Of a stretch of DNA of 64,000 nucleotides, positions 44,977 through 49,135 are shown piece by piece (position 1 is the stretch's first letter; the number at the start of each line of letters is the position of its first letter). The DNA lies in assembly GCF_004802635.2 (NCBI RefSeq), contig NZ_CP046052.1, positions 3,286,001-3,350,000 on the forward strand, written 5' to 3'. This DNA comes from Methylocystis heyeri. GTDB taxonomy: Bacteria; Pseudomonadota; Alphaproteobacteria; Rhizobiales; Beijerinckiaceae. The position numbers and the translations under genes were made by a program. The notes under the pieces were generated by a model. The model was given only the letters and a program-made list of their open reading frames with translations, was not told the DNA's origin and ran no database searches.

Positions 44977-46296
<1,320 letters not shown>

Positions 46297-46322
46297 CGTC
46301 GTTTCGGCGTGGCCGCATCGGC

Positions 46323-47037: not shown

Positions 47038-48213
47038 TCAAAACAGCGAAAGCTGTTCGCCTTCGCGCCTGGGCCTCTGGAACAGATCGCAGCGCAGACG
47101 TGTCGCGCCGAAGCCGAGACGGGAAGCCGCGACCTCGAACCTGCGGCCGATCATCCAGGCATAAGGGCCCTCGCCCTTCAGGCGGCTCTCGAACGCGGCG
47201 TCATAGAGCTTGCCGTCTCTGGTGGAGCGGATCAGCGAAAGCACATGGCGCGCCTTATCCGGGTAATGCGCGACGAGCCATTCGGTGAATATCTCCCTCA
47301 CTTCGAGCGGCAGGCGCAGCATCACATAGCCGGCCTCCCGCGCGCCCGCGGCATGGGCTCGGGTCAATATAGTCTCGATTTCGGGATCGTTGATCCCCGG
47401 AATGATGGGAGCCACCATGACCGCCGTGGGAATTCCGGCGGCGCTGAGCTTTTCTATCGTTTCCAGCCGGAGTCGCGGCGAAGCGGCGCGGGGCTCCATC
47501 TTGCGCGCGAGCGCGCCGTCGAGCGTCGTAATGGAGATCGCGACCTTGGCGAGGCCCTTGCGCGCCATGGGCGCCAGAATGTCGATGTCCCGCGTCACCA
47601 GCGCCGATTTGGTGACGATGCCGACAGGGTGATCGGCGCGCTGCAGCGTCTCCAGCACGCCGCGCATGACGCGGAAGCGTTTTTCGGTCGGCTGGTAGGG
47701 ATCGGTGTTGGTTCCGATGGCGATGGTCTTCGGCGCATAGCCCGGCGCGGAAAGCTCGCGCTCCAGAAGCTGCGCCGCGCCTTCCTTCACGAAAATCTCG
47801 GTCTCGAAATCGAGACCGGGAGAGCAGCCCATATAGGCGTGGGTCGGACGCGCGAAACAATAAACGCAGCCGTGTTCGCAGCCCCGGTAGGGGTTGATCG
47901 AACGGTCGAAGGCGATATCCGGGGAATCGTTGCGGGTGATGACGCTGCGCGGGCGTTCGATATGGATGTTGGTCTTTAAGGGATCGAGAGTCTCCAGCGA
48001 ACCCCAGCCGTCGTCGATCTGCTCCCGGACGCTGGGCTCGTAGCGGCCGCTCCGCTTCGAGATCGCGCCGCGCCCGCGACGGCGCTCGGCTGCGACGACA
48101 TCCGCCGCGACGATTTCGGGCGCGGACGAAGAAGATTCCCGCGACCGGCGCGCAGACCTGCCGTCCGGCGCCCGAGAGGCCGCATGATTTACGGAACTTT
48201 CGAGAGCGCTCAT
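47038..48213 (-). CDS. PA0069-family radical SAM protein (SplB-like)
   Basis: 391 residues. The radical SAM cluster motif is C-x3-C-x2-C at Cys112, Cys116 and Cys119 (GCEHGCVYCFARPTH), with the SPL-related GTNTDPYQPTEKR and GIVTKSALVTRDIDIL further on. The N-terminal 70 residues are basic and poorly conserved. Proteins of this group resemble spore photoproduct lyase but their substrate is not established. P. aeruginosa PA0069 is a known member of the LexA regulon, and a double LexA-type operator lies upstream of this gene, pointing to DNA-damage induction. Confidence 0.85.
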   Translation of the reverse strand: MSALESSVNHAASRAPDGRSARRSRESSSSAPEIVAADVVAAERRRGRGAISKRSGRYEPSVREQIDDGWGSLETLDPLKTNIHIERPRSVITRNDSPDIAFDRSINPYRGCEHGCVYCFARPTHAYMGCSPGLDFETEIFVKEGAAQLLERELSAPGYAPKTIAIGTNTDPYQPTEKRFRVMRGVLETLQRADHPVGIVTKSALVTRDIDILAPMARKGLAKVAISITTLDGALARKMEPRAASPRLRLETIEKLSAAGIPTAVMVAPIIPGINDPEIETILTRAHAAGAREAGYVMLRLPLEVREIFTEWLVAHYPDKARHVLSLIRSTRDGKLYDAAFESRLKGEGPYAWMIGRRFEVAASRLGFGATRLRCDLFQRPRREGEQLSLF

Positions 48214-48366
48214 CGCGACGCCGCCTCCTCAACCCCGTTGCCGTTCTTGACGCCCGGCTTGCGGCCCGAAGCCACGCCGCGGGGACCGCCACGGCGGACC
48301 CGGGCCGCAAGCCGAACTAACCTACGCGCACACCGCTCACGCACGACGACGGTTAACCGCCTGACA

Positions 48367-48400
48367 GAACATACACCGAACAAAAGAACATTTAGCGAAC
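48367..48400 (-). promoter_or_regulatory. tandem alphaproteobacterial LexA (SOS) boxes
   Basis: On the minus strand: GTTC-N7-GTTC-N4-GTTC-N7-GTTC. The four GAAC half-sites on the plus strand are at 48367-48370, 48378-48381, 48386-48389 and 48397-48400. GTTC-N7-GTTC is the established LexA site of alphaproteobacteria, and two complete sites in 34 bases are very unlikely by chance. They lie 154 bases upstream of the radical SAM start codon in the 336-base gap 48214-48549, in which I see no other feature. Confidence 0.85.
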
Positions 48401-48549
48401 AGTTTCGGCGCTGTCAACAGCTTGGCGCCGTCGAGCGGGGGCCGAAGCGCCTTGGAGGACGGACGAAATTTCACGGGCGCGCCAAGCCACGCCCGGCCGA
48501 TCAGGCTCTGTGGGAGTATGTCTAGTGAAAAAGCGGCCTATCCGCCGAC

Positions 48550-49017
48550 TCAGGCCGCCGGCGGGGTTTCGGTGGGCTTGGCCGCGGCGCGCCGGCGCCT
48601 CGGCTTGCGCACGCCTATGCTTTTCCATTCATTGGGCGCGAGGTCTATGGTCCGGGGCCCTCTGCGCGGGTCGGGGCGCAGACGCCGGGCGATGTCGGCG
48701 CGAATCGAGGGCGCCTTGAGCGCGAGGCCGACGAGATCGGAGGCGAAGCCGGGCAGGATCAGCAGCAGCGAACCGAGCGCCTGCAATCCGCCGTCCATCA
48801 TATTGGGGCTCGCGCCGGGCTTGGTTTCGCTCTTGCCCATCCTGCGGCGCAGATATTCGATCAAGCGCTTGATATCGAGCAGGCCGAGCAGGGTCGTGCC
48901 GGCGCCGAGGGCGATCGCCGCCAGCAGTCCGAGGATTTGCACCACCAGCACGAAGGCGACGACTTCGATAAAGAGCCATCCGCCTACCGCATAGGCGACG
49001 ATTTTCGACCTGTTCAC
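48550..49017 (-). CDS. fxsA: FxsA family membrane protein
   Basis: About 155 residues if it starts at the GTG at 49017; a TTG at 49026 or start further upstream near GGAGG (49038-49042) cannot be excluded. FxsA-type: two or three hydrophobic segments (WLFIEVVAFVLVVQILGLLAAIAL, GSLLLILPGFASDLVGLAL), GTTLLGLLDIKRL, and a basic Pro-rich tail. FxsA proteins are inner-membrane proteins named for suppression of phage exclusion. It is divergent from timA. In many alphaproteobacteria fxsA, timA, mltA and smr sit together, as here. Confidence 0.82.
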   Translation of the reverse strand: MNRSKIVAYAVGGWLFIEVVAFVLVVQILGLLAAIALGAGTTLLGLLDIKRLIEYLRRRMGKSETKPGASPNMMDGGLQALGSLLLILPGFASDLVGLALKAPSIRADIARRLRPDPRRGPRTIDLAPNEWKSIGVRKPRRRRAAAKPTETPPAA

Positions 49018-49135
49018 GCGTGTCAATCGTTTCAGCGAGCCTCCGCCAGCTTCCCGTCGAATAGATCGGCATTGATTCGTGACTTGCAACTACCGACATG
49101 CTACCGCAAAATCCCAACCCGAGGGAGTGACCTCT

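Follow-up and report, generated by a model that had tools for sequence, protein, structure and literature searches.

Two GAAC-N7-GAAC boxes upstream of a PA0069-family radical SAM gene in Methylocystis heyeri very probably form a tandem LexA operator, which would make this gene inducible by DNA damage. The boxes lie in a 64,000-nucleotide stretch of the genome that was analyzed as a whole and is referred to here as the window. On its forward strand they read GAACATACACCGAAC (48367-48381) and GAACATTTAGCGAAC (48386-48400), separated by the spacer AAAA, and their GAAC half-sites start at 48367, 48378, 48386, and 48397. The ATG of the gene is at 48213 and the gene-proximal box starts 154 bases beyond it; the two perfect boxes and their distance from the gene, as given in a preliminary description of this DNA, were both confirmed in the sequence. 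The features of the region, all on the minus strand, are as follows.

48412..48417 (-), -35 hexamer TTGACA, perfect, found by eye
48389..48394 (-), possible -10 hexamer TAAATG, inside box 1, placed from its 17-base spacing to the -35 hexamer
48386..48400 (-), predicted LexA box 1, GTTCGCTAAATGTTC in the gene's direction, overlapping the probable -10 hexamer
48367..48381 (-), predicted LexA box 2, GTTCGGTGTATGTTC in the gene's direction, 19 bases downstream of box 1
48255..48314 (-), long, very stable, GC-rich hairpin between the operator and the start codon, in the 5' leader (z -2.51)
47038..48213 (-), PA0069-family radical SAM protein, 391 aa, with cluster cysteines C112, C116, and C119
46323..46985 (-), rnhB, ribonuclease HII, 52 bases downstream of the radical SAM gene

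An FxsA-family gene (48550-49089) is oriented in the same direction as the radical SAM gene and ends before the boxes, which leaves the radical SAM gene as the only clear target. The preliminary description had equated the box with the alphaproteobacterial LexA consensus, and this motif is indeed stated in the excerpted text of PMC3323433 and PMC8565304. We therefore regard the pair as a well-supported candidate LexA operator for an SOS gene of a kind already known.

Conservation and genomic distribution of the box

The comparison of upstream regions across Rhizobiales homologues that had been proposed at the outset was carried out on several sets of genomes, which may share species. Read in the gene's orientation, GTTC-N7-GTTC was found upstream of the homologue in 76 of 80 Rhizobiales loci. 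A reversed control pattern was found in three of the 80, one of which overlaps a real box, and the background was four boxes in 1097 same-strand tiles of 660 bases taken elsewhere in the same loci. The four misses were inspected individually. Two of them (L049 and L056) have a LexA-like box turned round relative to the PA0069-family gene, one (L013) has two boxes with one mismatch each, and in the last (L039) the locus begins 22 bases upstream of the match. Among same-order genomes, with strand taken into account, the box was present in 30/30 and the exact reversed control in 6/30. The same-family set had it in 9 of 11, with a one-mismatch box in both misses.

Conservation extended to the other orders of the class. 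Of 67 such genomes with a strong match to the protein, the 59 for which a place was listed were all examined, giving the box in 54 and the reversed control in one. Three of the five misses carry one-mismatch boxes, which weigh little because the reversed control reaches 26/59 when one mismatch is allowed.

By count, a single box is unremarkable. Three were found in the window against 1.93 expected, and the 4.73 Mb genome holds 126 box patterns compared to 70 for the reversed control. Such frequencies would fit repeats that arose by chance or that bind another regulator with GTTC half-sites, an account we consider highly improbable given that the box is conserved upstream of homologues, that recA and lexA carry the same motif, and that other LexA motifs take the place of the box outside the class. 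The operator is judged to be real because of its conservation upstream of homologues. The arrangement is also uncommon: among 100 sites listed of the 126, the pair in the window was the only one found by eye within 40 bases.

These 100 sites were ranked with a matrix built from 52 distinct homologue boxes. The site upstream of recA, 57 bases before the open reading frame (ORF), had the highest score; box 1 ranked 9th and box 2 12th, above the sites of comM, at the 5' end of its ORF, and lexA. Only one gene in the genome scored over the cut-off for lexA, and its box lies about 100 bases upstream of the ORF. The bacterium thus carries the same motif at both its own recA and lexA, as expected for a LexA operator. 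A box was also found 30 bases upstream of the ORF of a DNA polymerase III alpha gene, which is probably dnaE2. The genes next to other high-ranking sites either are not known to act in SOS or had no Pfam match. Our look at the regulon covered 20 of the 100 listed sites, hand-picked for plausible spacers, and is a sample of the full regulon; a Pfam scan of 20 ORFs from 14 stretches placed 10 above the cut-off, several of which, a glycosyl transferase and a porin among them, are not known to take part in the SOS response.

Three sites from this survey are recorded here in their own right. The second-best of the 100 listed boxes (L211:1433-1447; C1:600332-600346) is inside a long ORF, immediately ahead of the part for a PLD-like nuclease domain (PF13091). 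If the ORF really starts after the box, as it may, it could be an SOS-controlled nuclease. The recA box (L210:1460-1474; C1:334059-334073) is flanked by recA on one side and on the other by a divergent haem-NO-binding (HNOB) gene, possibly under the same control. A LexA-like box in the opposite orientation (L215:1449-1463; C1:1236348-1236362) lies 100 bases before the ORF of a C-5 cytosine methylase.

Predicted promoter and tandem form

A scan of the region for consensus promoters listed none. The -35 hexamer TTGACA is nevertheless perfect by eye, and the TAAATG placed 17 bases from it, inside box 1, is a weak match to TATAAT, agreeing at three of six positions. A recount of the promoter and the second box altered our description of the promoter and left the odds for a LexA operator unchanged. 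The spacing recurs among relatives. In a group of 21 close sequences chosen by kinship, the window among them, seven have TTGAC at precisely this 17-base distance from box 1, compared with none of 102 others. This difference suggests joint evolution of the promoter and the operator within the close group.

The tandem form was counted in the same way, with the others including the first 40 of the 59 genomes from other orders. A second box at an offset of 18-20 was found in 9 of the 21 close sequences (window included), with seven or eight of the eight half-site letters, and in 3/102 others, each with six of eight; in the remaining 12 close sequences no second box was found at this offset. The second box is perfect in the window and in L006, L011, and L192, and has the form ATTC-N7-GTTC in four close sequences, among them G187 (L193) of the same genus.

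The regulatory cycle that we infer from this layout, comprising LexA binding, the exact promoter, the transcription start, occupancy of both boxes, and induction, would be as follows. As long as the DNA is undamaged, the -10 region would be covered by a LexA dimer on box 1, and the first transcribed bases by a second dimer on box 2. Such a two-dimer block would lower leakage and keep the gene tightly off. DNA damage would activate RecA, LexA would then cleave itself, and the radical SAM gene would be switched on.

Most relatives have one box, and LexA might act through box 1 alone, with box 2 a non-functional repeat that arose by chance or is being lost. The matrix score of box 2 is below that of box 1, and partial repeats do arise elsewhere, with 6 of the 102 others reaching six of eight letters at offset 25. 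Against this, several members of the Methylocystaceae and Beijerinckiaceae, among them the congener noted above, have the second box at a nearly fixed offset, although recurrences among relatives are not independent events, and the second box is perfect in four sequences. We consider a single functional box unlikely and retain the tandem operator as the preferred reading. Among the matches listed in our literature search for tandem GTTC-N7-GTTC, none, going by its title or the start of its abstract, clearly dealt with an alphaproteobacterial operator of this kind. The doubled box, as a tandem form at the level of a lineage, is the new detail of this analysis.

The radical SAM enzyme and predicted LexA control in other lineages

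The assignment of the gene to the PA0069 type in the preliminary description held up: the protein scored 545.7 bits against a curated cut-off of 360 for the PA0069 family (NF033668). For the Rv2578c family it reached 232.1 bits, short of the cut-off of 430. The three cysteines of the CX3CX2C motif (C112, C116, C119) are invariant in 38/38 aligned sequences, and no fourth invariant cysteine was found among them; the best other cysteine columns reached 11, 9, and 9 of 38. One of the 9/38 columns, at residue 161, is at a position we take to be near the fourth-cysteine spacing of spore photoproduct lyase. In that lyase, C140 is the hydrogen-donor fourth cysteine and a tyrosine directly follows the cluster motif. 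The aligned PA0069-family sequences differ from it in having no fourth invariant cysteine and mostly phenylalanine after the motif (F in 32/38, Y in 6/38).

The AlphaFold model was moderate (mean pLDDT 70.8, with residues 1-66, 112-118, 123-137, and 337-343 below 50), and its top three fold matches were spore photoproduct lyase structures (4k9r, 4fhf, 4fhe; E 3.9e-07 to 5.1e-06), at 14-15% identity and TM-scores of 0.41-0.49. Sequence searches returned no lyase chain, either with the single sequence (0 matches to E 0.1) or with a 38-row profile (10 matches to E 1). Despite the best fold match, a photolyase or spore photoproduct lyase label was rejected on the absence of a fourth invariant cysteine. 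Going by the model, the enzyme would function in the manner of SplB-like proteins, although it lacks a defining lyase feature. It probably acts by radical chemistry on damaged DNA carrying some lesion. We know of no substrate for a PA0069-family enzyme, and for this reason an annotated radical SAM protein becomes a concrete candidate for DNA repair. The organism's own genome, rated 100% complete, had no match at E 0.001 to the DNA photolyase family PF00875, which would make a repair role simpler to test in this lineage.

The operator sequence changes outside the class. In the rest of the phylum, 60 genomes had a strong match, and the upstream region was examined in 46 of these; the remainder were 13 with no listed place and G393, excluded because too little upstream sequence was available. 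CTGT-N8-ACAG was found upstream of the gene in 30/46, its control in 0/46, and GTTC-N7-GTTC in 0/46, whereas within the class CTGT-N8-ACAG was found in 0/59 and its control in 5/59. We take Pseudomonas PA0069 to be SOS-induced as well, a view with which the CTGT-N8-ACAG counts agree. The 16 genomes with no exact CTGT-N8-ACAG comprise two in which TTAGTA-N4-TACTAA, which we take to be the Xanthomonas LexA motif, lies at -79 (perfect in G090, one mismatch in G302), one (G395) with a one-mismatch CTGT-N8-ACAG at -81, and 13 with nothing convincing. The idea, put forward from the window alone, that SOS control of this enzyme is kept while the operator sequence differs is thus borne out by the motif counts, with one sequence inside the class and another in most genomes outside it. 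Judged by these predicted sites, PA0069-family genes across the proteobacteria keep their link to the damage response. Retention of LexA control while the LexA binding sequence changes is a strong sign of a core damage-response product.

Continued LexA control of the gene despite a changing operator has been published before: PMC3323433 describes splB under LexA in alpha- and betaproteobacteria with differing motifs and concludes that it is a conserved target. What our case appears to share with it is LexA control of an SplB-like radical SAM gene through class-specific motifs, splB and the PA0069 family being likened here by description rather than by locus tags. The gene is called a photolyase in that paper, unlike here, and its section 8 describes no tandem operator. 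The excerpted texts of PMC7739468, PMC8565304, and PMC9380542 report SOS radical SAM genes in Gram-positives, Balneolaeota, Bacteroidetes, and Streptomyces; these systems resemble ours in having a radical SAM gene in a LexA network and differ in their motifs and in belonging to other phyla. As excerpted, PMC8151990 lists a RecA-dependent DNA repair photolyase, PMC3765255 ties SplB-like enzymes to SOS gene neighborhoods, and PMC6473078 and PMC12907096 give the alphaproteobacterial LexA motif, with this gene not among the excerpted contents. One paper that names PA0069 uses it only as a tag site. Our literature search found no work joining PA0069 with LexA, and nothing for Rv2578c with LexA or Methylocystis with LexA. 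We assume that the radical SAM genes in the LexA networks of other phyla probably belong in part to other subfamilies, such as the Rv2578c family.

Taken at its broadest, the PA0069 family might be a nearly universal SOS enzyme in the proteobacteria that carry it, controlled through at least three operator sequences, acting on a lesion other than the spore photoproduct without the lyase cysteine, working with ribonuclease HII in Rhizobiales, and placed under tandem-tightened control in methanotroph relatives. We offer this combination tentatively and think it rather doubtful as a whole.

Leader and downstream genes

The GC-rich hairpin in the leader has no other full-length copy in the genome. 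It was rejected as a conserved RNA element since it is not consistently shared by relatives: among 13 sequences, each shuffled 60 times and one of them from the window, z varied between -3.46 and +0.88, and a further two that had no exact box were left unfolded.

Downstream, rnhB follows the radical SAM gene in the same orientation in 72 of the 80 Rhizobiales loci, a synteny that suggests a possible functional link with the enzyme. The operator could then control a multigene SOS unit in which rnhB and perhaps ccrM join the radical SAM gene, so that RNase HII and CcrM methylation would rise with damage. The short gap to rnhB in the window, at 52 bases, fits such a unit, as does ccrM coming next in the same direction in 15/80 loci. 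Against it, the median gap between the two genes in relatives is longer, at 102 or 223 bases for the furthest or nearest possible rnhB start (70 of the 72 loci, those with a start found), a terminator-like hairpin of eight pairs lies at 47066-47046, ccrM has its own 170-base leader, and outside the order rnhB was near the gene in 1/20 loci. We regard a multigene unit as a real but lesser possibility, and control of the radical SAM gene as the main reading. SOS control of CcrM was set aside because ccrM has its own leader signals and follows in only 15 of the loci. Its leader (46153-46322) contains two GANTC sites and a one-mismatch TTAA-N7-TTAA, presumably a CtrA-like motif, as if ccrM had a cell-cycle promoter of its own.
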